Below, in pieces: positions 8,411-39,606 of a DNA stretch of 43,382 nucleotides (the stretch's first letter is position 1; each line of letters begins with the position of its first letter). The position numbers were made by a program, and so were the translations under genes. The notes below the pieces were generated by a model. That model worked only from the letters and a program-made list of their open reading frames with translations. It had not been told where the DNA came from and did no database searches. The stretch is from a virus. The stretch lies in IMG/VR virus record IMGVR_UViG_3300006805_000004, positions 1 to 43,382 of that record; one strand, written 5' to 3'.

Positions 8411-9768
8411 TAACGCGACCTTCCTGCGCCGGGGTCATTGACCGTCACCGCAGAGACGCGGAACGGAACCTGATCTGTCGTGCGAAACTCGAACAAGGCG
8501 CCGGGATCGTCGAACGTCCCGAGCCTGCGCCACTCCAGGCGGGTCCGGTATTCACCCTGCGCCCCGAGCGGAGCGGGGAACCACTGACTCCACGTCCGCC
8601 CCGCATCGCGGCTGAAACGCATCTCGCATTGCGGATCGGCATAATCGCCCGAGAGAAACCCGGTGTTGCCGACATTCGCCCGCAAACGCAGGCTGCGGAT
8701 TCCCACATTGCCCCCGTTAAGCGGAAAGCCGCCGCGGAAACGCCGCTCGAACACACCGCCAAGGTCGGTGAACCCGGAACCCCACGTAATCGTTTTGCCG
8801 TCAATTACCGAGCCGAACACGCCGCCCGACCAGCATTGCGGCACGAAGTTGCTTTCACCGTAGGACTGGAACTCGCTCCACATTCCCGAGCGCAGCGACC
8901 AGATTTGCGTTTCCTCGTCGAGACGCAGCCCCAACATCTCAATGCCGTTAATCAGGAAGTTGAACAGGGAGACGTTCGTCGCCGCCTCAATCCGCTCTTC
9001 AAGCCCGACGTTGGAAATGATATTCGACTCTTCGGTCATGCAGACCTGATTCTGGTTCGTGACCCAAGCGTGGGTAGAACCGATCTTCGTTGCGCAGCCG
9101 GTCGCTTTGATGCCCTTTTTGTAAACCCTCCCCTGCAAGGGAGCGAAAGGCAAATCCGCATTACCCGTTGATGGCCAGAACTCTACCGTCTCGGCGCCAT
9201 AAAGAATGAGGATGCCGTCAAGATACAGGCAATCCAGAAGCCGGTCGGGCTGGCTTTCCGCCGATGCGAAATTTAGCCCGTCAATGTTGTCGCTTAGCGG
9301 GTCCGAATAATAGAACGCCTGCGTGTCAGCCCGAATGGCAATCGCCCGCGATTCCCCGACAATCACCTTGAGAACATTCGCCCCGTCAGGAAACGTCACC
9401 GCTGCCAGCGTCGAGCCGTCATAGCCCCACAGGCTCCCACCGGCTGCCGCGAACAGGAGATCAGCGTAACCGTCCATCGAGACGGGTCCGTCGCCGTTGA
9501 TTCCTCCAAGGCTCGTCGTGTCCATGTAGAGTGACGAACCCGACACGCCGAACAAGGCGCCGCCCAAAACCCCATCGCGCTTATAAAGCTGTCGAACCGG
9601 GCCAGCCCCCATGTTGGCCGAGCGATCGGCAAGCGGCGGGCGCGATTGCAGCACAACGCCGCCTGTCTCGGTCGGAGCCTGTTCCGCATACATGTTGATG
9701 ACCGGAAGCTCCGGCAAATCGCCTTCGGCCCGCTTGTAGGATGAGAGGCCGAACTGAACGTCAGGCAT
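8410..9768 (-). CDS. tail hub / packaged-DNA stabilisation protein, P22 gp10-like
   Basis: A 452-residue protein. FGLSSYKRAEGDLPELPVIN, then MYAEQAPTE, is the typical opening of the P22 gp10 family, the hub protein that plugs the portal after packaging. The body consists of repeated short strand motifs (LFGVSGSSLYMD, LLFAAAGGSLWGYDG, LILYGAETVEFWPSTG) as in its beta-propeller fold. It directly follows a gp4-like gene with a shared TGATG-type junction, reproducing the P22 order gp4-gp10. No signal peptide; acts in virion assembly. Confidence 0.8.
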   Translation of the reverse strand: MPDVQFGLSSYKRAEGDLPELPVINMYAEQAPTETGGVVLQSRPPLADRSANMGAGPVRQLYKRDGVLGGALFGVSGSSLYMDTTSLGGINGDGPVSMDGYADLLFAAAGGSLWGYDGSTLAAVTFPDGANVLKVIVGESRAIAIRADTQAFYYSDPLSDNIDGLNFASAESQPDRLLDCLYLDGILILYGAETVEFWPSTGNADLPFAPLQGRVYKKGIKATGCATKIGSTHAWVTNQNQVCMTEESNIISNVGLEERIEAATNVSLFNFLINGIEMLGLRLDEETQIWSLRSGMWSEFQSYGESNFVPQCWSGGVFGSVIDGKTITWGSGFTDLGGVFERRFRGGFPLNGGNVGIRSLRLRANVGNTGFLSGDYADPQCEMRFSRDAGRTWSQWFPAPLGAQGEYRTRLEWRRLGTFDDPGALFEFRTTDQVPFRVSAVTVNDPGAGRSR

Positions 9769-10430
9769 CAGTTATAAGGCCCCATGAAGTAAGACGAGGG
9801 CCGATCCTGTGCGTCAATCTTGAACTCAAGCACGGCAGCGCGCGCCGCGATCTCGTCAGGAACCGGATAGCCAAACGCGGTGCAAACCCGCTTCGTCAGG
9901 ATAGTGAGAACCCCGCCCTGCCAGTCCTGCGGGATGTCGAGCGTCTGCGTGGCGTCCGTGACAACCTCGATCTTACGCAGATAGTCAATATTGACCTTGG
10001 AATTTGCCGAGGGAACCGGCCAGACGTAAAGGTCAACCTGATCGCGCTGGCGGTCGATATAGAAGATGCTCGGGTTGCCCGTCTGCGTCTTGTTCGGCAG
10101 TATCTTGTATTGGTCGCGGTCGAACGGAGTCAGCGGACGCTCAAGCGTCGCCGTCGTCTGGAAGCGAACTGCCGCAACGTCATAGACATCGCTCGCAAGC
10201 GTGGTCGGGTTGATGTTGGCGGTTATATCCACTTCCGCCGTTTCCTGCCGCCACAGCGTGTAGCCGCGGGTTTCCCACTCCTTGAGAAGCAGATTCAACT
10301 CGTCAATCACGTCCTGGACTTCCACCGCCGTGGGATCGGTCCCGGCAGCAATGATCTGCCCGTCGCGCAGCGCCTTGTAAGCCATGTCGCGCGCAGTGAA
10401 GGAAAGCGTGTAGACGCCAGAAGTTGTCAT
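9768..10430 (-). CDS. head-tail adaptor, P22 gp4-like
   Basis: A 220-residue protein. FTARDMAYKALRDGQIIAAG, then TDPTAVEVQDVIDELNLLLKEW, is characteristic of the podovirus tail accessory factor gp4 family, whose helical N-terminal domain binds the portal ring. The C-terminal half carries beta strands (QVDLYVWPVPSANSKVNIDY). In the virion it would sit between portal and gp10-like hub. It overlaps the upstream small zinc-type protein by ATGA. Confidence 0.8.
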   Translation of the reverse strand: MTTSGVYTLSFTARDMAYKALRDGQIIAAGTDPTAVEVQDVIDELNLLLKEWETRGYTLWRQETAEVDITANINPTTLASDVYDVAAVRFQTTATLERPLTPFDRDQYKILPNKTQTGNPSIFYIDRQRDQVDLYVWPVPSANSKVNIDYLRKIEVVTDATQTLDIPQDWQGGVLTILTKRVCTAFGYPVPDEIAARAAVLEFKIDAQDRPSSYFMGPYN

Positions 10431-22038: not shown

Positions 22039-22658
22039 GGTCCGCTGCCGAGGCTGGCGAGGAATGATCCAGGGCCATCGTTCGCGGGACGGCGAGATTC
22101 TGGCTTGGCAAAGCGCCGGCTGTTCAAAACCCATGTCTTCCAACCGTCCTGCCAATCGAGGAAGCGATTCCCCTTGCCGCGATGGTGGGCGCTAAAATGC
22201 TCGATCTGTGTCGCAAGCTCTTTCGGCGACCAGCTGTCGACGATTGCCTTGCATTGGCTGTCAGCACCAAACGGCTCAGGCTTCCAATCGACCGGCAACG
22301 CGCGCTTTGTGTTTTTAGGTTTGGTGTTTACTGACGTATTGGGTGACACAGTGTCGGGGGTCTTTGTCGCCTTTGTCACCGGTGACACAGTGTCGGGGGT
22401 GACACAGTGTCGGGGGTGAAGCGTATAAAGACACCCCTTGCCCGGTTTATCGTCGCGGGTCAGGTGGCCGTTTTTTTCAGCCTCGCGAAGAGCGCGCTGA
22501 ACGGTCCGCTCGGAGCAGCCGGACTTTGCCGCAATACGCGCGATAGATGGCCAACATTTCCCGTCATCGTTCGCCCAATCAGCGAGCGCCAGCATTACCA
22601 GCTTATCAACGGACGGGAGAGCGAGGCGCCACACCTCGGTCATAAGAGCGATGCTCAT
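22035..22658 (-). CDS. HTH replication initiator-like protein (phage O type)
   Basis: A 207-residue protein. The N-terminal ~75 residues are a winged helix of the HTH_36 type (LVMLALADWANDDGKCWPSI, ARIAAKSGCSERTVQRALRE, AEKNGHLTRD), as at the start of phage replication proteins that load DnaB. A Thr/Pro/Ser-rich linker (about 85-115) follows, encoded by DNA that contains three copies of a palindrome (22342-22416), then a C-terminal domain (ELATQIEHFSAHHRGKGNRF) resembling that of phage O/DnaT-like proteins. This arrangement parallels lambda O, whose gene contains the origin iterons. The DnaB helicase is two genes upstream in the same operon. Confidence 0.75.
   Translation of the reverse strand: MSIALMTEVWRLALPSVDKLVMLALADWANDDGKCWPSIARIAAKSGCSERTVQRALREAEKNGHLTRDDKPGKGCLYTLHPRHCVTPDTVSPVTKATKTPDTVSPNTSVNTKPKNTKRALPVDWKPEPFGADSQCKAIVDSWSPKELATQIEHFSAHHRGKGNRFLDWQDGWKTWVLNSRRFAKPESRRPANDGPGSFLASLGSGP
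22342..22416. repeat. three palindromic iterons, candidate replication origin
   Basis: GGTGACACAGTGTCGGGGG occurs at 22342-22360, 22381-22399 and 22398-22416. Each copy contains the perfect palindrome GACAC-A-GTGTC (22345-22355, 22384-22394, 22401-22411). The third copy is read in a different codon frame (RHCV) from the first two (PDTVSP), so selection must act on the DNA, not the peptide. Adjacent bases 22308-22340 are unusually T-rich for this genome, like a duplex-unwinding element. Lambda-type phages place origin iterons in their initiator gene in the same way. Confidence 0.65.
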
Positions 22659-28183: not shown

Positions 28184-28476
28184 GCGCGTCTGATATCGCG
28201 AAAGAACGCGCAGACTGGCTGCTCGACGCCATTGCTTGCGCAATGCAAGACCGCCGCTTCCTAAGAGGCAATCCACAATACGACGAAGACATCGGTATGG
28301 CTATTTTGCTGAACGGAGAGAAGGCCATAAACGTGGCGATCGCTAAGCACTGGTCTAGCCAAGACGTGATCTACGTCCAGTGGAGCGATGACGGGCAGCA
28401 TATCCGCAAGTGGTCGCGCGAACCCTTCGATGGCGCCGGTGCAATTTCAGCTGTGACCGTGGAGCAACGGTCATGA
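28180..28476 (+). CDS. hypothetical protein with [13 protein letters not shown] motif
   Basis: A 98-residue protein. The C-terminal third, [20 protein letters not shown], is nearly identical to the N-terminal part of the protein at 39334-39606, and the DNA shows a shared 26-base stretch there, so the two are recombined or duplicated domains. The motif is frequent in small phage proteins of unknown role. ATGA overlap at both ends. Confidence 0.6.
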
Positions 28477-28595
28477 CCGCATTCACCCGCCACCTTCGCC
28501 TCACCTCTCTCAGCATGGAAACACCGCTCTGGATGTATCCGGTGATGGGAGTGCTTTCTTTCTGTCTTATTGGTTTTTGGAGTGGATGGCAATGA
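28473..28595 (+). CDS. small membrane protein
   Basis: A 40-residue protein with a basic N-terminus ([14 protein letters not shown]) and one transmembrane helix ([20 protein letters not shown]). The start overlaps the previous stop as ATGA and its stop overlaps the alpha-CTD-like gene start. Early phage membrane peptides often interfere with host envelope functions; nothing more can be said. Confidence 0.55.
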
Positions 28596-29236
28596 ACGAC
28601 AAGGCGCCTCCTTCGGACCGCGCTACCCGTGCAAGCACCGAGCCTGCAAGCAGTCTCGGCCATTCGGCGGGTATCGCTGGCGCGTCCGCTCTCGATAGTT
28701 CCGTTGGCGAGATGGAATGGTCGATAAGGACTTACAACTGTCTAGCAAACGCCGGGATACTTACCGTTAGACAGCTCACTGAAATGACGGAAGCAGAGGT
28801 TCTTCGCATTCCAAACTTCGGGCGCAAATCCCTCAACGAGGTCAACGAAGTTTTAGCCGGTATGGGGTTACGTATCGGAGGCCTTTCCTCCGCTATCGCC
28901 AATCCAAAACCCGTTGGTGGATGCGCCGCCGCTGTCCCAGCAGGGATAGTTAGCATCGAAACGCCATGGAGCCGTGGACGTAAGAAAAAGTCCACATGCG
29001 ACTGTCGCATCTGCGTTCGCAGTCGCCAGTTTGACCTTCGCGTCAAGCCCTTGGGCGAATTCAACCGAAAGTATTTCAGCGCCCTCTATGACGAGCTTTG
29101 CGAGGTCGAGGACGAGCGCGATTACCTCCAGGCGATCCTAGACGGAACGTGGCCACAATCTGTCGAGATTCTCGAAAAACGGCTCGAAAAGGCGCGCGAA
29201 ATAGCCGCCACAAAACTCAAGGAAACATCCCAATGA
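28592..29236 (+). CDS. RNA polymerase alpha-CTD-like protein
   Basis: A 214-residue protein. Residues 37-96 align by eye with the C-terminal domain of bacterial RNA polymerase alpha: [12 protein letters not shown] corresponds to E. coli VRSANCLKAEAI, and [20 protein letters not shown] to [20 protein letters not shown]. The residues of the UP-element-binding surface are kept (Arg46, Asn49, Cys50, Gly77, Lys79, Ser80, Glu83 for R265, N268, C269, G296, K298, S299, E302). A disordered N-terminus replaces the alpha-NTD, and a C-terminal part carries CDCRIC (136-141) and a long charged helix. It could bind promoter DNA or compete with host alpha-CTD. ATGA overlaps on both sides. Confidence 0.8.
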
Positions 29237-29928
29237 ATGCCCCTAGCAAAGTAAAGGCGGACACTATCGCAGCCGCATATGTCGCAGCCTTCGCGGAGAT
29301 CGAGGGCGCCATTAAGGACGCGAAAAACCCGCACTTCAAGAGCAAGTATGCGGACCTCCCCGCCGTCATCGCAGCTATCAAGCCTGCGCTGGTCAACCAC
29401 GGCCTCGCGTTCACGCAACCGTGCGAGCCTTCTGCAGAAGGGGTTACTGTCCGCACGATCCTGCACCACGTCTCAGGCGAGGCGCTGGACCTTGGCAGCC
29501 TGTTCGTCCCCGCCAACAAGCGGGATGCTCAGGGATTCGGCTCTGCACTAACCTATGCGCGGCGCTATGCCCTTGTGTCGGCATTTGGCGTCCCGACCGA
29601 GGATGACGACGGAAACGCGGCTGTCGCTTCCATGAGCCGTCAGGAACCGAAGCAGGAACCAAAGCGCGGCCTTGATGGCCCATATACCTCGAAAGACGCG
29701 CTCAAGAAGGCGTTTATCGCCCTGCGTAGCGAAGTGAACCGCTGCGGTGACGATGACACCCTCGAATGCCTGCTGGCAACGGACGACGCGAAGAAGCTGA
29801 TCGCGCAATGCGACCGAGACGCGCCGCACCTTTTGCACGGCAATGACCCGAACGCACCCGAATGGATCGGGCTTTACGCTGAAATACAGCGCTTGCGTGA
29901 CAATTTTCAACTGGAGAATGTTCGATGA
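29233..29928 (+). CDS. erf: ERF-family single-strand annealing protein
   Basis: A 231-residue protein. [20 protein letters not shown], then [20 protein letters not shown], and the later [20 protein letters not shown] are the signature stretches of the ERF superfamily (P22 Erf-like), which anneals complementary single strands in phage recombination and genome circularisation. A Gln/Lys linker and a C-terminal helical domain follow. ATG 29233 overlaps the previous stop as ATGA. SSB is the next gene, as is common for such recombination modules. Confidence 0.85.
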
Positions 29929-30296
29929 TTACGATTACCGTTGCCGGAAACGCGGGCAAGGATGCCGAGGCAAAGACCACGCAGGGCGGCGACAGCTATT
30001 GCCGCTTCTCGCTTCCCGGCACGTCCGGCTTTGGCGAGCGCGAACAGACCGTTTGGTTCGACGTGACCAAATGGGGCAAGGGCGCCGATGGCCTTGCGCG
30101 GCATATCCTCAAGGGAACGCCGGTCACTGTCACTGGCGAGCTTTCGACGCGCGAGCATGAGGGCAAGACGTATCTGCAAATCCGTGCGGATCGCGTGAAG
30201 CTGCAAGGGACGCGCGGCCAGCAGTCGGACACCCGACATGCCAACCAAAATGGCTTCGGAACCGACGACGATCTCGATTCAGACGTGCCATTTTAG
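29925..30296 (+). CDS. ssb: single-stranded DNA-binding protein
   Basis: A 123-residue OB-fold SSB: ITVAGNAGKDAEAKTTQGGD as first strands, EQTVWFDVTKWGKGADGLAR, then HILKGTPVTVTGELSTREHE and KTYLQIRADRVKL, followed by a short linker and the acidic tip DLDSDVPF that binds partner proteins. It coats single strands during phage replication and annealing. ATGA overlap with the ERF gene. Confidence 0.9.
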   Translation: MITITVAGNAGKDAEAKTTQGGDSYCRFSLPGTSGFGEREQTVWFDVTKWGKGADGLARHILKGTPVTVTGELSTREHEGKTYLQIRADRVKLQGTRGQQSDTRHANQNGFGTDDDLDSDVPF

Positions 30297-32230: not shown

Positions 32231-32394
32231 CGGATCCAGCTCGTTTCAGACAGGCAGATGTGCAAAAAGCAATCCGTGCTGCCAAGCTGGAGGGCGAGCA
32301 ATATCCGCGTGTCATTTTGCGGCCAAACGGTGAAATCGAGATTATATGTGGCGGACAGAAGCCCGCAAACGATGAAGAAGAATTCGACCTGTGA
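32227..32394 (+). CDS. small protein preceding integrase
   Basis: A 55-residue protein from GTG 32227: TDPARFRQADVQKAIRAAKL, then EGEQYPRVILRPNGEIEIIC. The form A-R-F-x-Q-A-D-V-x-x-A-x-x-A-A-K followed by a strand pair and an acidic tail is common just upstream of tyrosine integrases in alphaproteobacterial prophages. It could be a recombination directionality or integrase-coupled protein; this is inference. GTGA overlaps on both sides. Confidence 0.6.
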   Translation: MTDPARFRQADVQKAIRAAKLEGEQYPRVILRPNGEIEIICGGQKPANDEEEFDL

Positions 32395-33446
32395 GCAAGC
32401 GCAAAAAATGGCTGCCCGACAATGTGACGCCCTATAAGGATCGGCACGGAAAAACCCGTTATCGGTTTCGGAAGGTGGGGCTTCCGCAATACCACTTTCG
32501 CTATGAACCGGGAACGCCTGAATTCATGGAAGAGTATCACCGCGCCAAGTCGGCGGAGAAGCCCGCCCCGGCCCCAAGATATGAGGCTGGCACGGTTGAT
32601 GCAGTTATCGCCGCACTCTATGATTCGCCACGCTGGCGCAAAATGCGGCCATCGAGCCGCCGCACCTACCAGGGCATCATCGAGAAGTTCCGCGCCCGCA
32701 ACGGGCATCGCAAGATCACGGCGATCACGACCGCTATCATTGACAAGAAGCTCGGCGAAATGTCGGAAACGCCTGCGGCTGCGAACAACTATCGCAAGTC
32801 CCTTTCCCGCGTCTTTCGACAAGCCATTAAAATGGGCCTGATGAAACACAACCCGGTAGAGGCGACCGACGCTTACAAAATGGAAGGCGAAGGCTTCCAT
32901 ACGTGGACTGAGGAAGAGATTGCCGCCTACGAGGAGAAATGGCCTGTCGGGACGCGCGAGCGCCTAGCCTTCGCCCTGCTATTGCACACCGCCGTGCGCC
33001 GGTCTGATATGATCAAGATCGGCCCTGCTAACCGTGATGGTGACAGGCTGAACCTCGATCACACGAAGAACGACAGCGAAACGTCGATCCCGATCAATGC
33101 CGACCTGGAAGCGGCCATTGCACCCTTTGCGGACACAACCGGCCCTTATCTGCAAACAATGCACGGCAAGCCCTACACGGCAGACGGATTCGGCAACTGG
33201 TTCCGCCGCAAGGTAAAAGACGCGGGGCTGCCCTTGGGATGCTCGCCGCACGGATTGCGCAAGGCCATGTCGCGCCGTCTTGCGGAGTCTGGATCGACCA
33301 ATCAGCAGGGTCGCGCCGTCACTGGACACAAGACCGACCGCGAGTTCACGCGCTACGCGGCGAAGGCCAATAAGGCCGCGATGGCAGACGAAGCAATGGC
33401 GAACCTGTCTAAGCGGTTCGCCAAAAAGGATAATGCAGATGGCTGA
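32391..33446 (+). CDS. int: tyrosine integrase
   Basis: A 351-residue site-specific recombinase. The N-terminal ~60 residues resemble an arm-binding domain (YKDRHGKTRYRFRKVGLPQY), followed by a SAM-like core-binding domain (70-160) and the catalytic domain with Arg203 (HTAVRRSD), Lys226 (HTKND), His287/Arg290 (SPHGLRK), His313 (VTGHKT) and Tyr322 (FTRYA). It integrates and excises the phage chromosome. The GTG start overlaps the previous stop. The next 164 bp are non-coding and are the most likely place for attP. Confidence 0.9.
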   Translation: MSKRKKWLPDNVTPYKDRHGKTRYRFRKVGLPQYHFRYEPGTPEFMEEYHRAKSAEKPAPAPRYEAGTVDAVIAALYDSPRWRKMRPSSRRTYQGIIEKFRARNGHRKITAITTAIIDKKLGEMSETPAAANNYRKSLSRVFRQAIKMGLMKHNPVEATDAYKMEGEGFHTWTEEEIAAYEEKWPVGTRERLAFALLLHTAVRRSDMIKIGPANRDGDRLNLDHTKNDSETSIPINADLEAAIAPFADTTGPYLQTMHGKPYTADGFGNWFRRKVKDAGLPLGCSPHGLRKAMSRRLAESGSTNQQGRAVTGHKTDREFTRYAAKANKAAMADEAMANLSKRFAKKDNADG

Positions 33447-33610: not shown

Positions 33611-33883
33611 ATGATCAACGACACCATCGCAACCGTTAAGCCGATCAGCGATGCGCTCCTCGACCAGTTGCAGGACGAGATGCGCGAGATGGCAATCGAA
33701 CTGCGCAGCGAGGCGCGGGCTTTCCTGATCGAAGATGACGACATTCGCACGAACCGCGATCTTGCGGAGATTCTCGAATACGTCGCCGACAACCGCCCGT
33801 TGCTCGTTCGCTTCGGCTTCACGCTCCGCAAGCACCACACCCGGCACGCGGCTATTCGCGCTCTGACCGGCGGTGCGGCATGA
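33611..33883 (+). CDS. hypothetical accessory protein
   Basis: A 90-residue acidic helical protein (MINDTIATVKPISDALLDQL, QDEMREMAIELRSEARAFLI). ATG 33611 has GGAGG eight bases upstream, so the start is firm. First gene of the second rightward block. The last codons overlap the next start as ATGA. No family recognised. Confidence 0.6.
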   Translation: MINDTIATVKPISDALLDQLQDEMREMAIELRSEARAFLIEDDDIRTNRDLAEILEYVADNRPLLVRFGFTLRKHHTRHAAIRALTGGAA

Positions 33884-34131
33884 CGCCAGTTGATTCAAAT
33901 ACGCGCTCGGATTCTGTGCTGCAAGCGGTCCTGCCTTGCGACCGCGTAACCTATGAAGGTGTCGGAGGTTGGAACGACGGGCGTCTGGGCCAAGTCTTCG
34001 ACCTTCTGGCGGATGTGATCGAAGATCGCGGCGAGAAAGTCTGGCGGCACCCCTTGCTTACACAGATCGAAGCGATGGACAGCGAGATGCCGCTCCCCAC
34101 CCCTCCCGCATTGGAGGAACGTCGTGGGTGA
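33880..34131 (+). CDS. hypothetical accessory protein, linker cassette 1
   Basis: An 83-residue protein. Its N-terminus (PVDSNTRSDSV) is encoded by repeat A and its C-terminus (PTPPALEERRG) by repeat B, both of which recur around different coding sequence in the second cassette (36087-36729). The unique middle (EGVGGWNDGRLGQVFDLLAD, VIEDRGEKVWRHPLL) is acidic and helical. Function unknown. Confidence 0.6.
   Translation: MTPVDSNTRSDSVLQAVLPCDRVTYEGVGGWNDGRLGQVFDLLADVIEDRGEKVWRHPLLTQIEAMDSEMPLPTPPALEERRG
33885..33918 (+). repeat. junction repeat A, copy 1
   Basis: 34 bases identical to 36089-36122, encoding the N-terminal PVDSNTRSDSV of the gene that starts at 33880. The flanks diverge at once on both sides. 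Confidence 0.85.
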
Positions 34132-34135
34132 GCGG
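34093..34135 (+). repeat. junction repeat B, copy 1
   Basis: 43 bases identical to 36691-36733. They encode the end of one gene (PTPPALEERRG), include the ribosome binding site GGAGGAAC, and the GTG start with codons MGER of the next gene. Confidence 0.9.
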
Positions 34136-34348
34136 GTGACCACAACCGATCCGACATTTTCGACGCGCGCCCAGCTTGAACAATGGGCCGTCCTGACAGC
34201 CAAGCAGGCCGCTGCGCATCAGGCCCTCGGTGAGCGCACCGCTACCTTAGAAGCGTTGGCGCTGATTAAGCGCGTCACGCTCGCGCATCTGCATCTGCCT
34301 TTTGCCGATCAGCAGGAGCCCACCCCCACCAACGAAAGGAACATGTAA
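34124..34348 (+). CDS. hypothetical accessory protein, linker cassette 1
   Basis: A 74-residue protein from GTG 34124 after GGAGGAAC. The first residues (MGER) come from repeat B and the last (PTPTNERNM) from repeat C. The middle is a helical domain (RAQLEQWAVLTAKQAAAHQA, LGERTATLEALALIKRV). Its counterpart in the other cassette, between the same two repeats, is the unrelated DUF5131 gene. Function unknown. Confidence 0.6.
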   Translation: MGERVTTTDPTFSTRAQLEQWAVLTAKQAAAHQALGERTATLEALALIKRVTLAHLHLPFADQQEPTPTNERNM

Positions 34349-34353
34349 TGGCT
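34319..34353 (+). repeat. junction repeat C, copy 1
   Basis: 35 bases identical to 37451-37485. They encode a gene end (PTNERNM), carry GAAAGGA as ribosome binding site and the ATG GCT start of the next gene. A looser relative occurs at about 35296-35325 before the gene at 35323. Confidence 0.9.
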
Positions 34354-34563
34354 ACCGAACCCCGAACCTATCGCGGCTGGAACGTGAATTACGACTATCC
34401 GCCGATTCCGATCCGCTCTGCCGACTGGAGCGCGACCTCGCCGGATTATGACGTGGATTGCGACGAGGACGGCTTTCACGTCTGCTCTGGTCAGCAGGTC
34501 CATGCTGCGACCTATGAGGCCCTGTGCGCCGAAATCGACGCCGTAATCGAGGAGTCCGAGTAA
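34348..34563 (+). CDS. hypothetical acidic protein
   Basis: A 71-residue protein (TYRGWNVNYDYPPIPIRSAD, DVDCDEDGFHVCSGQQVHAA), strongly acidic with many aromatic residues; the form 'RGW.V.YDYPPIP.R..D...' is common in small phage proteins of unknown role. Translation start lies in repeat C. TAATG junctions on both sides. Confidence 0.6.
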   Translation: MATEPRTYRGWNVNYDYPPIPIRSADWSATSPDYDVDCDEDGFHVCSGQQVHAATYEALCAEIDAVIEESE

Positions 34564-34904
34564 TGGCTACCGAACAAGAGGGGCATACGCCGGGTCCTTG
34601 GTTCGTCGCCGCACAGAATGACGGCCTCGTCATCATCGACGGCCCGCCATCCCCTGCGCCATACGACGGACCGATCCCGAAGGCGCACGGCCCCGATGTT
34701 GTCGCGACGCCGAACTGGCGACTTGCGGGGCATGAGGCCAACGCCCGCCTGATAGCGGCGGCACCTGATCTGCTGGAGGCTGGAGACGGCGCGCGGCAAG
34801 CACTCTGGAACGCGCTCGACCATCTCGGTTTCGAGTGCCCCGATGCACACCCTGCGATCGTCGAACTCGACGCCGCCATCGCTCGTGCCACAGGAGAAGC
34901 GTGA
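34563..34904 (+). CDS. conserved phage accessory protein
   Basis: A 113-residue protein. HTPGPWFVAAQNDGLVIIDG at the start and HEANARLIAAAPDLLEAGDG in the middle are a widespread phage protein pattern (TPGPW...NA.LIA.APDLL) without known function. A C-terminal Asp/Ala-rich helix follows. The start overlaps the previous stop (TAATG). Confidence 0.65.
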   Translation: MATEQEGHTPGPWFVAAQNDGLVIIDGPPSPAPYDGPIPKAHGPDVVATPNWRLAGHEANARLIAAAPDLLEAGDGARQALWNALDHLGFECPDAHPAIVELDAAIARATGEA

Positions 34905-35050
34905 TGGGCTGCATCAAACTTCCGAACGGCGGAATCGCCTGCACACGAGGAAAGCGCATCAAGCCGGAAGCGCTCAAGCGCGACCTAGAAATCATAGCTC
35001 AATTTGAACGCGATCTGGAGGCTGGGAAATATGACAAGCGTCGGAAATAA
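34904..35050 (+). CDS. small basic protein
   Basis: A 48-residue protein: MGCIKLPNGGIACTRGKRIK, then a helix EALKRDLEIIAQFERDLEAG, YDKRRK. Two Cys flank a beta turn. The start is TGATG-coupled to the gene before; its 3' end overlaps the next gene by 20 bp. No family recognised. Confidence 0.55.
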   Translation: MGCIKLPNGGIACTRGKRIKPEALKRDLEIIAQFERDLEAGKYDKRRK

Positions 35051-35321
35051 GGCGGATTACGTCCGCAGCGAGGCATCGCGCAACACGACATTCGATCACC
35101 ATTGCCATTGGCCAGGGTGCAACAAATCCGTCCCGCCCGCAATGTGGGGATGCCGCCAGCACTGGTTCAAGCTGCCACTCCGCCTCCGCAACCGCATTTG
35201 GGCAACCTATCGACCGGGACAGGAAGTCACCAAGACGCCGAGCCGGGAATACATGGTAGTCGCGCAAGAGGTCCAGGATTGGATCAAGGCCAATGCCCCT
35301 CCCCCAACAGAAAGGACGTAG
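35031..35321 (+). CDS. conserved phage protein with zinc-finger-like core
   Basis: A 96-residue protein. HHCHWPGCNKSVPPAMWGCR, then QHWFKLPLRLRNRIWATYRP, gives C/H pairs fit for one zinc and a conserved phage pattern (WGC..HWF.LP..LR..IW..YRPGQE). Its function is unknown; such proteins are common in phage early regions. The end (PPPTERT) resembles repeat C ends. Confidence 0.65.
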   Translation: MTSVGNKADYVRSEASRNTTFDHHCHWPGCNKSVPPAMWGCRQHWFKLPLRLRNRIWATYRPGQEVTKTPSREYMVVAQEVQDWIKANAPPPTERT

Positions 35322-35322
35322 A

Positions 35323-35508
35323 ATGATCTGCTATCGCGACATGACGTTCTGCGAGGCGAAGTGCGGCAATCTGTCGTGCAACAGCAATTTCACCGACAAG
35401 GTTCGCGAAGAGGCCCGCGAGTGGTGGGGCGGCGAAGGTGCTCCCGTGGCCTTTGCTGACCTGTCTGTCATATGCCGGGATTTCATCCCTGTGGAGGACG
35501 TAGCATGA
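35323..35508 (+). CDS. small Cys-rich protein
   Basis: A 61-residue protein with Cys at positions 3, 10, 14, 19 and 50 (MICYRDMTFCEAKCGNLSCN), suggesting a metal-bound N-terminal knuckle, and an acidic Trp-rich second half (REEAREWWGGEGAPVAFADL). The pattern 'CYRDMTFC....C.N..C' is common in phages; function unknown. The ATG follows GAAAGGACGTAGA. Confidence 0.6.
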   Translation: MICYRDMTFCEAKCGNLSCNSNFTDKVREEAREWWGGEGAPVAFADLSVICRDFIPVEDVA

Positions 35509-35624
35509 TGATGGAGGATAAAGGGGATATGGCGTTGCCTGCGGCCCGCGCTGCCACTGCTTCGCAGCCGAGCCCTTCGGTCTCGGGCATAGCTGACATC
35601 GCTAACGCGGGAGTGGCGGCATGA
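35505..35624 (+). CDS. small hypothetical peptide
   Basis: A 39-residue Ala/Ser-rich peptide (MMMEDKGDMALPAARAATAS). ATGA overlaps at both ends (35505-35508 and 35621-35624) are the main evidence that it is translated. No structure or family recognised. Confidence 0.4.
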   Translation: MMMEDKGDMALPAARAATASQPSPSVSGIADIANAGVAA

Positions 35625-36097
35625 CTATTCTCGCCATTGACCACTGCATCTTCGGGAGTGGCCACGGATTTCGTTCACCGCACTGGGACAATCGCTTCTA
35701 TTGGCTTAATGGCGAACTCTACACGTTTCATCCAGGCTTCGGCGCACAGCTTCACAGTGTGCAATGGAGGCACCCCAATGCCGGAGAGCGGCGAAAGCTT
35801 TGCGGCCAGACATTCCGCCCGTTCCGTAGCGAAAGACGATGGGGGCGGGTCATGGTCGCTTGGGCTTGGGTGGAAATGCCGAAAGACATTGAAAGCGCAA
35901 ACTTAGCTCTGCGCGAACTCGAAAAGTCACTCGGCGGCGTGTCTGACTATCGACCGCCGGAACAACGCTGGCGCCTCGCGCAAGCGATCGAAGCGGCGGC
36001 AGCCGACGAGACGGGAACCGGCTCGGCCGTAGGCGAGAGCGCGGTGGCCGACGGCCATGCGCCACACCCCAATCAGGACACCCCCCATGCCAGTTGA
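35621..36097 (+). CDS. hypothetical accessory protein
   Basis: A 158-residue protein. The N-terminal ~90 residues are aromatic and compact (HWDNRFYWLNGELYTFHPGF), followed by a helix (DIESANLALRELEKSLGGVS) and a disordered Ala/Gly/Pro tail. It overlaps the next start by 11 bp. No family recognised. Confidence 0.5.
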   Translation: MTILAIDHCIFGSGHGFRSPHWDNRFYWLNGELYTFHPGFGAQLHSVQWRHPNAGERRKLCGQTFRPFRSERRWGRVMVAWAWVEMPKDIESANLALRELEKSLGGVSDYRPPEQRWRLAQAIEAAAADETGTGSAVGESAVADGHAPHPNQDTPHAS

Positions 36098-36422
36098 TTC
36101 AAATACGCGCTCGGATTCTGTGGGGCGAGCATCGAAGCCGAAAAGCTACCAAGGAATGAAGCGCCGTATCATGGACCTCCGCCTCGAAATCATCGCCTAT
36201 GATGCTGAAACAGACAAGCTAAAGCAAAGGGCCGAGCGCGAAGGTGGGCCGTCTGCACGGCTTGCGGTTGACAGTGCGAGAAGCCCTAAATTTCATGAGT
36301 TGAACAACGAGCTTATTCAGGCCGAGATTGATCTGGCTGGTTGGAAATTCCCGGCGAAGAAGAAGAAGCCAGATGCCTCATTCAGTTCAATGATAAATCT
36401 CGCGATTAGGAGGGTCCGGTGA
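36087..36422 (+). CDS. hypothetical accessory protein, linker cassette 2
   Basis: A 111-residue protein beginning with the repeat A peptide (PVDSNTRSDSV) but then unrelated to the cassette 1 gene: a basic helical hairpin (YQGMKRRIMDLRLEIIAYDA, ETDKLKQRAER) and a Lys-rich end (KFPAKKKKPDASF). Function unknown. Confidence 0.6.
   Translation: MPVDSNTRSDSVGRASKPKSYQGMKRRIMDLRLEIIAYDAETDKLKQRAEREGGPSARLAVDSARSPKFHELNNELIQAEIDLAGWKFPAKKKKPDASFSSMINLAIRRVR
36089..36122 (+). repeat. junction repeat A, copy 2
   Basis: Exact copy of 33885-33918, here starting two bases after the A of ATG 36087. Confidence 0.85.
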
Positions 36423-36511
36423 GCGGATCAGCCATGTTTTTCATGTGGGCGTGTGGCTTTGTTGCCGGATTTTGCGCCGATGCCTTGCTAGAAAAAGTGA
36501 GCAGAAAATGA
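36419..36511 (+). CDS. very small membrane protein
   Basis: A 30-residue peptide from GTG 36419: SGSAMFFMWACGFVAGFCAD, then ALLEKVSRK, one transmembrane helix and a basic tail. GTGA overlap with the gene before and ATGA with the gene after, with GGAGGG upstream. It is too short for function prediction. Confidence 0.5.
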   Translation: MSGSAMFFMWACGFVAGFCADALLEKVSRK

Positions 36512-36729
36512 ATAACCCGATTTTGGACGAGCTTGACGTGCTGGACACGATCATTTCCTCGATCGCCATTCTATCCAACCCTGACTGGGCTGAAAAACGC
36601 AAAACCCCGCAGGACGCGCTCGACGAGATACACGACTTAACAAGCATCGTGATTGGCGATGTGATGAAGCGCATCTCTGAAAGGGCGCCTCTCCCCACCC
36701 CTCCCGCATTGGAGGAACGTCGTGGGTGA
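36508..36729 (+). CDS. hypothetical accessory protein, linker cassette 2
   Basis: A 73-residue acidic helical protein (MNNPILDELDVLDTIISSIA, LDEIHDLTSIVIGDVMKRIS) ending in the repeat B peptide PTPPALEERRG. The ATG overlaps the preceding stop. Function unknown. Confidence 0.55.
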   Translation: MNNPILDELDVLDTIISSIAILSNPDWAEKRKTPQDALDEIHDLTSIVIGDVMKRISERAPLPTPPALEERRG

Positions 36730-36733
36730 GCGG
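36691..36733 (+). repeat. junction repeat B, copy 2
   Basis: Exact copy of 34093-34135: gene end, ribosome binding site and GTG start of the DUF5131 gene. Confidence 0.9.
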
Positions 36734-37480
36734 ACAAAAATCGAATGGTGTGATCACACCTTCAACCCTTGGATCGGCTGCACAAAGGTCAGCCCGGCGT
36801 GCGATAACTGCTATGCTGAGGCCCTGATGGATGGGCGCTACGGGCGCGTCCAGTGGGGCGCTGGCAATCCGCGCTCGCGCACCGCCCCTTCGACGTGGAG
36901 GCAGCCGCGCAAGTGGAATCGTGACGCCGAAAAGGCGGGCAGGCGTCCGTTCGTGTTCTGCTCGTCGCTGGCCGATGTGTTCGATAACGAGGTTGATCCC
37001 AGATGGCGTGCTGACCTGTTCAAGCTGATCGAAGATACGCCGAACCTTGTCTGGCTTCTCCTGACCAAGCGGATCGGAAACGTAATGCGGATGATGGAGG
37101 GCGTTCGGATGCCCAATAATGTGGCGTTCGGAGCAACGATGGCCGATCAGATGGAATATGACCGCGACCGGATGAAACTCGCCGCCGTCCGCTTCGCGCT
37201 GCATCCGCTGTTCACCTTTGGCAGCTTCGAGCCGTTGCTTGGCCCTGTCATTCTCGACCGGAACTCGCCGGACTGGATTATTGTCGGCGGTGAGAGCGGG
37301 CCGAACGCACGACCGATGGACCTTGATTGGGCGCGCTCGCTGAAACGCCAGAGCGACGACCTTGGGCGCATCTTCAATTTCAAGCAGGTCGGCGGCCGCA
37401 CGTCGGACAAAGGCGGCCACCTTCTTGACGGTCGCGAATATCTCGCGCGCCCCACCCCCACCAACGAAAGGAACATGTAA
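36722..37480 (+). CDS. Gp37/Gp68-family (DUF5131) protein
   Basis: A 252-residue protein. TKIEWCDHTFNPWIGCTKVS, then PACDNCYAE, is the family signature; three Cys in CTKVSPACDNC (C-x6-C-x2-C) could hold an iron-sulfur cluster as in radical-SAM-like enzymes, and NVAFGATM, GSFEPLLGPV and IIVGGESGPNARPM follow as in the family. It is widespread in phages and plasmids; its reaction is unknown. Start is GTG 36722 in repeat B and the end (PTPTNERNM) is repeat C, so it was inserted or exchanged between these junctions. Confidence 0.8.
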   Translation: MGERTKIEWCDHTFNPWIGCTKVSPACDNCYAEALMDGRYGRVQWGAGNPRSRTAPSTWRQPRKWNRDAEKAGRRPFVFCSSLADVFDNEVDPRWRADLFKLIEDTPNLVWLLLTKRIGNVMRMMEGVRMPNNVAFGATMADQMEYDRDRMKLAAVRFALHPLFTFGSFEPLLGPVILDRNSPDWIIVGGESGPNARPMDLDWARSLKRQSDDLGRIFNFKQVGGRTSDKGGHLLDGREYLARPTPTNERNM

Positions 37481-37485
37481 TGGCT
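37451..37485 (+). repeat. junction repeat C, copy 2
   Basis: Exact copy of 34319-34353: end of the DUF5131 gene, GAAAGGA, and ATG GCT of the following gene. Confidence 0.9.
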
Positions 37486-39334: not shown

Positions 39335-39606
39335 TGTCTGATGACGTGGAGAAGATCGCCCTGATCTACGTGCGCTGGTCCGATGACGGCCAGCATATCC
39401 GCAAGTGGTCGCGCGACCCCTTCGACGGCGGCGAGCCGATGTATAGCCGCTCGTTCCTGCTATCAGAGGAAAGGGTGGAGGCTGCATCTCGTGGGCTTGC
39501 GAAACATGATCGCATAGAGATTTGCAGCGACGCGACTTACAGGCTCTCAACCTACGGCCCGAAAGCCATTTCGGCAATCGTCGCTGCTATCGGGGAGGGG
39601 AAGTGA
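39334..39606 (+). CDS. [13 protein letters not shown]-motif protein, second copy
   Basis: A 90-residue protein. [20 protein letters not shown] matches the C-terminal third of the protein at 28180-28476, but here it is near the N-terminus and is followed by a different C-terminal part (ATYRLSTYGPKAISAIVAAI). AGGAGAACCATA precedes the start. Function unknown. Confidence 0.6.
   Translation: MSDDVEKIALIYVRWSDDGQHIRKWSRDPFDGGEPMYSRSFLLSEERVEAASRGLAKHDRIEICSDATYRLSTYGPKAISAIVAAIGEGK

Follow-up and report, generated by a model that had tools for sequence, protein, structure and literature searches.

Two Sets of Genes Between the Same Three Sequences

How do two unrelated sets of genes come to lie between the same three short sequences, in the same order and in a single genome? 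The question is raised by a Sphingopyxis-type phage, IMG/VR record IMGVR_UViG_3300006805_000004. The window is the whole stretch of 43,382 nucleotides that was analyzed and appears to be a complete circular virus record; its first 34 nt are identical to its last 34 nt. The phage encodes ERF, SSB and integrase genes upstream of an array of short conserved gene junctions, here called seams (Table 1). Three of these, A, B and C (34, 43 and 35 nt), occur twice as exact copies, in the order A-B-C and then A'-B'-C', as the original prediction had described. The seams are probably gene-boundary blocks at which related temperate phages swap whole genes by homologous recombination, the tandem cassettes having arisen by unequal exchange at a further seam, F. 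We put the probability of this reading at roughly 80%.

All three repeats run slightly beyond their exact part, with mismatches. Exact repeats of such length would hardly ever arise by chance in a sequence of 43 kb (expectation about 1e-11, our own estimate). Seams B and C each contain the last codons of a gene, its stop, a ribosome-binding site and the next start, which agrees with the original prediction. Seam A is not a full stop-to-start junction: it begins at, or directly behind, the following gene's start codon and codes for the first residues of that gene. Between A and C there are two short genes in cassette 1 and four, DUF5131 included, in cassette 2; this difference was borne out by the open reading frames and by the match to Pfam PF07505. 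The g2 product has no meaningful match in Pfam or PHROG.

When viral contigs were scanned for exact copies of A, B and C, each seam was found in a single record, the same for all three: contig NZ_BCZQ01000038.1 of Sphingopyxis terrae, which carries a prophage. On this contig A stands at 691, B at 978 and C at 1445; the order is kept and the genes between are different. The check suggested with the original prediction, a search for the three sequences and the genes beside them, was therefore positive. Since this is a third unrelated gene set, each seam has three left and three right partners. Seam A lies between gene 33611 and g1, between g8 and g9, and in S. terrae between an NT5C-like gene (by Pfam) and gene X. 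The partners of seam B are g1 and g2, g11 and the DUF5131 gene, and X and Y; those of seam C are g2 and g3, the DUF5131 gene and g13, and Y and Z. After removal of the seam-encoded tails, no homology was found between proteins of the same slot, either A-B or B-C.

The original prediction held that the repeats would reduce to a simple old duplication if A-B-C occurred only here, or if the two cassettes were eroded copies of one ancestral gene set. Such a tandem duplication, with genes diverged beyond recognition and only their ends left, would produce the A-B-C order twice in one genome. However, the series is also present in the independent S. terrae prophage, with genes that are unrelated again, and exact seams next to fully diverged genes would be odd. 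The numbers of genes differ between the cassettes, and one slot holds a recognizable DUF5131 gene. Because the same-slot genes are not homologous and the gene counts differ, an eroded duplication was rejected as very improbable.

Alignment of the window with the S. terrae contig exposed further near-identical islands, D, G, E and F, in otherwise unrelated DNA. A looser C-like junction that had been placed at 35296-35325 is real, but it is a separate seam, E, with 31 of 32 nt in common with S. terrae. Of the 10 isolated shared islands, eight are no more than 5 nt away from a start or stop, where random placement would put 1.9 (P 3e-5). Two longer stretches are also common to both phages, one of 591 bp over g7 and g8 (93.9%) and one of 168 bp in the 3' part of g4 (92.9%). 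Inside g7 there is a stretch of 83 bp (35531-35613), with the frame ..RAAT..PSPSVSGIAxIANA, that has 85-94% DNA identity to S. terrae, to loci L036 and L043 and, over 65 bp, to Sphingopyxis phage VSN-002, mostly without flanking similarity; g7 is perhaps a truncated gene start. Far from the array, where a minus-strand gene ends, a 75-bp island (231-305) matches S. terrae contig positions 7113-7187 at 90.7% and is perhaps a late-region seam.

Only S. terrae was recovered by a degenerate B pattern in genome contigs, by seams G and E in viral contigs, and by seams A (up to 3 mismatches) and G (1 mismatch) in 398 family genomes. Known phages and plasmids gave matches to the cargo at gene level only.

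Footprints of Gain and Loss, and Seam-Encoded Tails

The shared seams and the unrelated cargo are direct observations, as are the seam-encoded tails and the footprints for g3, g6 and the A'-B'-C' module. In the window g3 is flanked by two 16-nt copies of GTAATGGCTACCGAAC, one in seam C and one in seam D; in S. terrae C is fused to D via one copy, without g3. Similarly, g6 is flanked by AGGACGTAGAATGAT and AGGACGTAGCATGAT, and in S. terrae seam E abuts g7 directly via one copy, without g6. The third footprint involves the end of g8. In S. terrae g8 leads through CAGGACACCCCCATG straight into the counterpart of window gene 38575. The window has the same g8 end, but there it runs into the F-A joint, which in S. 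terrae precedes its own A. The F/A' joint is chimeric: its left side is that of S. terrae 2582-2601 (the g8/g17 joint) and its right side that of S. terrae 677-728 (the F-A joint), with AGGACACCCCC in common. Given this chimeric joint and the direct g8-38575 joint in S. terrae, an insertion at seam F is the best reading of the whole A'-B'-C' stretch (36085 to about 38575). S. terrae lacks three segments that the window has, g3, g6 and the A'-B'-C' module, and every one of them is located at a short repeat with a start codon or ribosome-binding site. A donor phage with the exact A'-B'-C' cargo was not found.

The similarity of the cargo DNA to other Sphingopyxis and viral loci stops at or near the seam edges, as seen for g1 (33934-34080), g3 (34366-34541), orf34904 plus g5 (34909-35289) and g5 (35079-35285). 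A g1 homolog in locus L037 covers residues 16-76 only and is without seam tails, and the g3 homologs in L038 and L042 begin after the seam. In the g5 family, PHROG 18063 (37 viral loci), the core is conserved to near VQDWI and the tail differs in almost every lineage, being seam E in the window and another seam, Q, in locus L039. Relatives of the DUF5131 protein start with MADGTKIEW or similar and end soon after LLDG.., without the MGER and PTPTNERNM tails; the window protein starts MGER-TKIEW and ends LLDGREYLAR-PTPTNERNM. On these sequence comparisons the tails are a property of the seams and not of the genes. The terminal residues of small phage proteins may consequently be seam-derived and not native, which matters for annotation and for guesses of function from termini.

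Seam Q belongs to a second Sphingopyxis lineage. Genome G412 contains a prophage, L039, whose sequence over this region is that of viral contig L051. Its gene joints have repeats of their own: P (45 nt, 93%), and Q, which is 39 nt exact and recurs in a 28-nt version at another joint. Genome G432 has Q and other short blocks in common with G412, with different genes around them; a single composite gene contains some of these blocks. In a third genome, G427, 26 nt of seam G (34888-34913) recur exactly between yet other genes. Among about 50 related loci, exact junction repeats of at least 28 nt were found only in these phages; the loci also had a few repeats of other kinds. Seam B (34121-34131) and seam Q (L039:6310-6337) both have TCGTGGGTGAG, a stop-start overlap reading RG*/GTG GGT GAG. 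Another phage, L077, has a repeated junction of stem-loop, ribosome-binding site and ATG (8979-9023 and 9793-9837; 45 nt, 96%).

Table 1. Seams, cargo genes and associated genes of the window (SD, Shine-Dalgarno sequence; X, gene of the S. terrae prophage)
Feature	Positions	Strand	Description
Seam A copy 1	33885..33918	+	34 nt, exact with copy 2; g1 N-terminal PVDSNTRSDSV; identical at S. terrae contig 691-724
Seam A copy 2	36089..36122	+	start of g9
Seam B copy 1	34093..34135	+	43 nt, exact with copy 2; tail ..TPPALEERRG*, SD GGAGG, GTG start of next gene (MGER); S. terrae 978-1019 identical, 42 nt
Seam B copy 2	36691..36733	+	end of g11, start of DUF5131 gene
Seam C copy 1	34319..34360	+	34319-34353 exact with copy 2, 35 nt; tail PTPTNERNM*, SD AAAGGA, overlapping ATG (MATE); S. 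terrae 1445-1484 identical, 40 nt
Seam C copy 2	37451..37485	+	end of DUF5131 gene, start of g13
Seam D	34560..34592	+	stop/ATG overlap and MATEQEGHTP; 16 nt GTAATGGCTACCGAAC in common with seam C
Seam G	34860..34909	+	g4 C-terminal end, SD AGGAGA, next ATG; 50 nt exact in S. terrae
Seam E	35296..35327	+	tail APPPTERT*, SD AAAGGA, ATG; 31/32 nt in S. terrae
Second copy of AGGACGTAG.ATGAT	35495..35508	+	flanks g6 together with 35313-35326
Seam F	36066..36088	+	CAATCAGGACACCCCC..ATG, g8 end and ribosome-binding site; composite insertion seam
g1	33880..34131	+	cassette 1, A-B slot cargo, 83 aa
g2	34124..34348	+	cassette 1, B-C slot cargo, 74 aa
g3	34348..34563	+	between 16-nt repeats; absent in S. 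terrae
g4	34563..34904	+	PHROG 1273 type; ends conserved with S. terrae, middle differs
g5	35031..35321	+	PHROG 18063 family; seam E encodes last residues
g6	35323..35508	+	between AGGACGTAG.ATGAT repeats; absent in S. terrae
g7 and g8	35505..36097	+	block in common with S. terrae
g9, g10, g11	36087..36729	+	cassette 2, A'-B' slot cargo; unrelated to g1 and to S. terrae X
DUF5131 gene	36722..37480	+	B'-C' slot cargo; Pfam PF07505, E 5.7e-65
ERF-family single-strand annealing protein	29098..29928	+	candidate agent; PF04404, E 2.1e-25
SSB	29925..30296	+	PF00436
Integrase gene	32391..33446		0.4 kb from seam A

Homologous Exchange and Its Rivals

A seam block that spans the last codons of a gene, the next ribosome-binding site and the start codon could serve as an exchange point for whole genes. 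Because both partners would carry the same seam, an inserted gene would be in frame, would have a start signal and would gain the terminal residues that the seam encodes. A second A-B-C module with other cargo would have come from another phage of the group and been joined at F, just after g8; unequal exchange between two such phages is the simplest route to the A'-B'-C' insertion. Seams A, B and C (34-43 nt) and G reach or exceed the minimal pairing lengths published for RecA (31-34 nt) and Red beta (23-27 nt) (PMC3945230). That seam identity drives the exchanges, in which direction each event ran, and which enzyme was used (an ERF/RecT-type annealing protein or host RecA), we infer from such patterns.

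The phage's own ERF had been put forward as a candidate agent. An Erf protein has been shown to match Red beta in recombination efficiency (PMC3945230). A second contig, C39, very probably carries the continuation of the S. terrae prophage: one repeat is found both at the end of C38 and at the start of C39, and C39 has 95-96% blocks in common with the early region of the window. On C39 a YqaJ exonuclease, RecT and SSB are encoded where the window has ERF and SSB. Since the seams persisted through a change of annealing protein, the agent cannot be identified as ERF, which is a candidate only; neither ERF nor RecT was found in the second-lineage records. These two annealing modules occupy the same place in the sister phages, 29098-30296 in the window and L105:529-2821 in S. 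terrae.

The proximity of the integrase gene, 0.4 kb from seam A, would suit an integron-like, site-specific cassette array in which the seams were targets of a tyrosine recombinase such as this one, and an integrase-like open reading frame, by reading, also flanks the L039 array. However, an integrase next to early genes is usual in temperate phages. Seams A to G have no common core beyond bits resembling ribosome-binding sites (longest shared 8-13 nt), are largely coding and, except for B copy 1, do not fold unusually well. An attC-like folded core at every joint, as in integrons, was not found, and we rejected this hardly credible reading for want of a common core and of folding at most seams.

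The stop, ribosome-binding site and start within B and C could instead mean that the seams are kept as translation or coupling signals (occlusion of the ribosome-binding site, stop-start coupling) and that recombination is incidental. Around seam B copy 1 (34085-34140) there is a stable hairpin that pairs the Shine-Dalgarno sequence (z -3.3), the only convincing signal in a survey of promoters, terminators and folds at the seams. At the two remaining copies of seam B the fold is unremarkable (z -0.4 and -0.1), and the other seams fold poorly. Moreover, one function would have to be served by seven different sequences, A consists almost wholly of coding sequence, and the one-copy versus two-copy gene footprints would be left unexplained. 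We therefore regard conservation for function as improbable.

Illegitimate or microhomology recombination at sequences resembling ribosome-binding sites, with selection keeping those joints that leave genes intact, is the usual account where boundary sequences are not found (PMC3029335), and the F, g6 and g3 joints, which share about 9-16 nt only, would suit it. Yet A, B, C and G are identical islands of 34-50 nt on both sides of changed genes and exceed what it needs. It is a real possibility for the array, if not a probable one.

Several points weigh against homologous exchange at the seams. The identity at the F, g6 and g3 events is below the published pairing minima, and microhomology or illegitimate events may lie behind some of these joints; the shorter common stretches (9-16 nt) may likewise be microhomology events or erosion. 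Only two phages carry the A-B-C series, the window and one sister. All four seam copies compared are perfect and more alike than the shared genes (joint P about 4e-4), which could also mean selection for a function, an apparent conservation biased by the choice of seams as exact matches. Finally, the evidence consists of footprints of recombination, and recombination itself was not observed.

The original prediction saw here a conserved-linker, variable-cargo system. Linkers and cargo hold up, given the S. terrae A-B-C series, the non-homologous cargo and a second phage pair with seams of its own; a dedicated system is not supported. It is doubtful that the seams form an evolved plug-in architecture, that is, ordered identical sockets under selection for in-frame exchange and immediate expression, with the annealing protein as engine.

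Elsewhere in the window, the region just before ERF (28577-29236) encodes a predicted protein that has a domain of the RNA polymerase alpha C-terminal type (PF03118, E 2.9e-19). A 72-bp repeat (87.5%) lies inside two genes (28367-28438 and 39362-39433) and is apparently a common domain, GGTGACACAGTGTCGGGGGT is present in repeated copies at 22341-22420, and no tRNA was found in the window.

Seams and Known Boundary Elements

Lambdoid boundaries are mostly single-copy per genome. According to the account in PMC3029335, which cites Susskind and Botstein (1978) and Clark et al. (2001) on HK620, it was suggested that mosaic modules undergo homologous recombination at these boundary or linker sequences; they are missing at most mosaic joints (PMC3029335). 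Seams A, B, C, D, E and G resemble them as short conserved joint sequences in phages with differing genes between: all six are in common with the S. terrae prophage, and the genes between most of them are unrelated. The footprints are consistent with homologous exchange at such boundaries. In contrast to the lambdoid case, there are several distinct seams here, which are ordered, repeated in one genome and encode protein tails. In mycobacteriophages Island3 and Brujita, about 50 bp of identity and an 18-residue C-terminal tail on neighbouring proteins mark gene gain or loss (PMC3029335). A shared tail and a short identity at gene gain or loss are features of the seams as well, but the mycobacteriophage case is one event, whereas here there are a seam series, several events and a second lineage.

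Two other kinds of repeated element invite comparison. T4-type PeSL cassettes reportedly have a promoter and a stem-loop in each element. As outlined in PMC4503421, the PeSLs of T4 (Arbiol 2010; Comeau 2014) recur between accessory genes as short elements with a presumed role in gene shuffling. The seams share this placement and repetition, but are without the early promoter and stem-loop: no sigma-70-type promoter-like site was found at them, there is no terminator signal, and only one seam copy folds unusually well. The SAS/ESAS elements of cluster K mycobacteriophages are repeats just upstream of unrelated gene starts in one genome, with a single consensus, half of them with inverted repeats (PMC3203893). 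Repeated sequences near the starts of unrelated genes in one genome are also what we see, but the SAS/ESAS consensus is kept with a given gene family, whereas the seams have no one consensus upstream of many starts, differ from each other, span both gene ends and change partners.

The boundary-sequence model is thus a known idea; what is new here is multiple distinct seams that are ordered, repeated within a genome and tail-encoding. Seven seams, several precise gain and loss footprints and two independent phage pairs make that model directly testable, and together they are an unusually clear record of viruses swapping whole genes at short matching seams.

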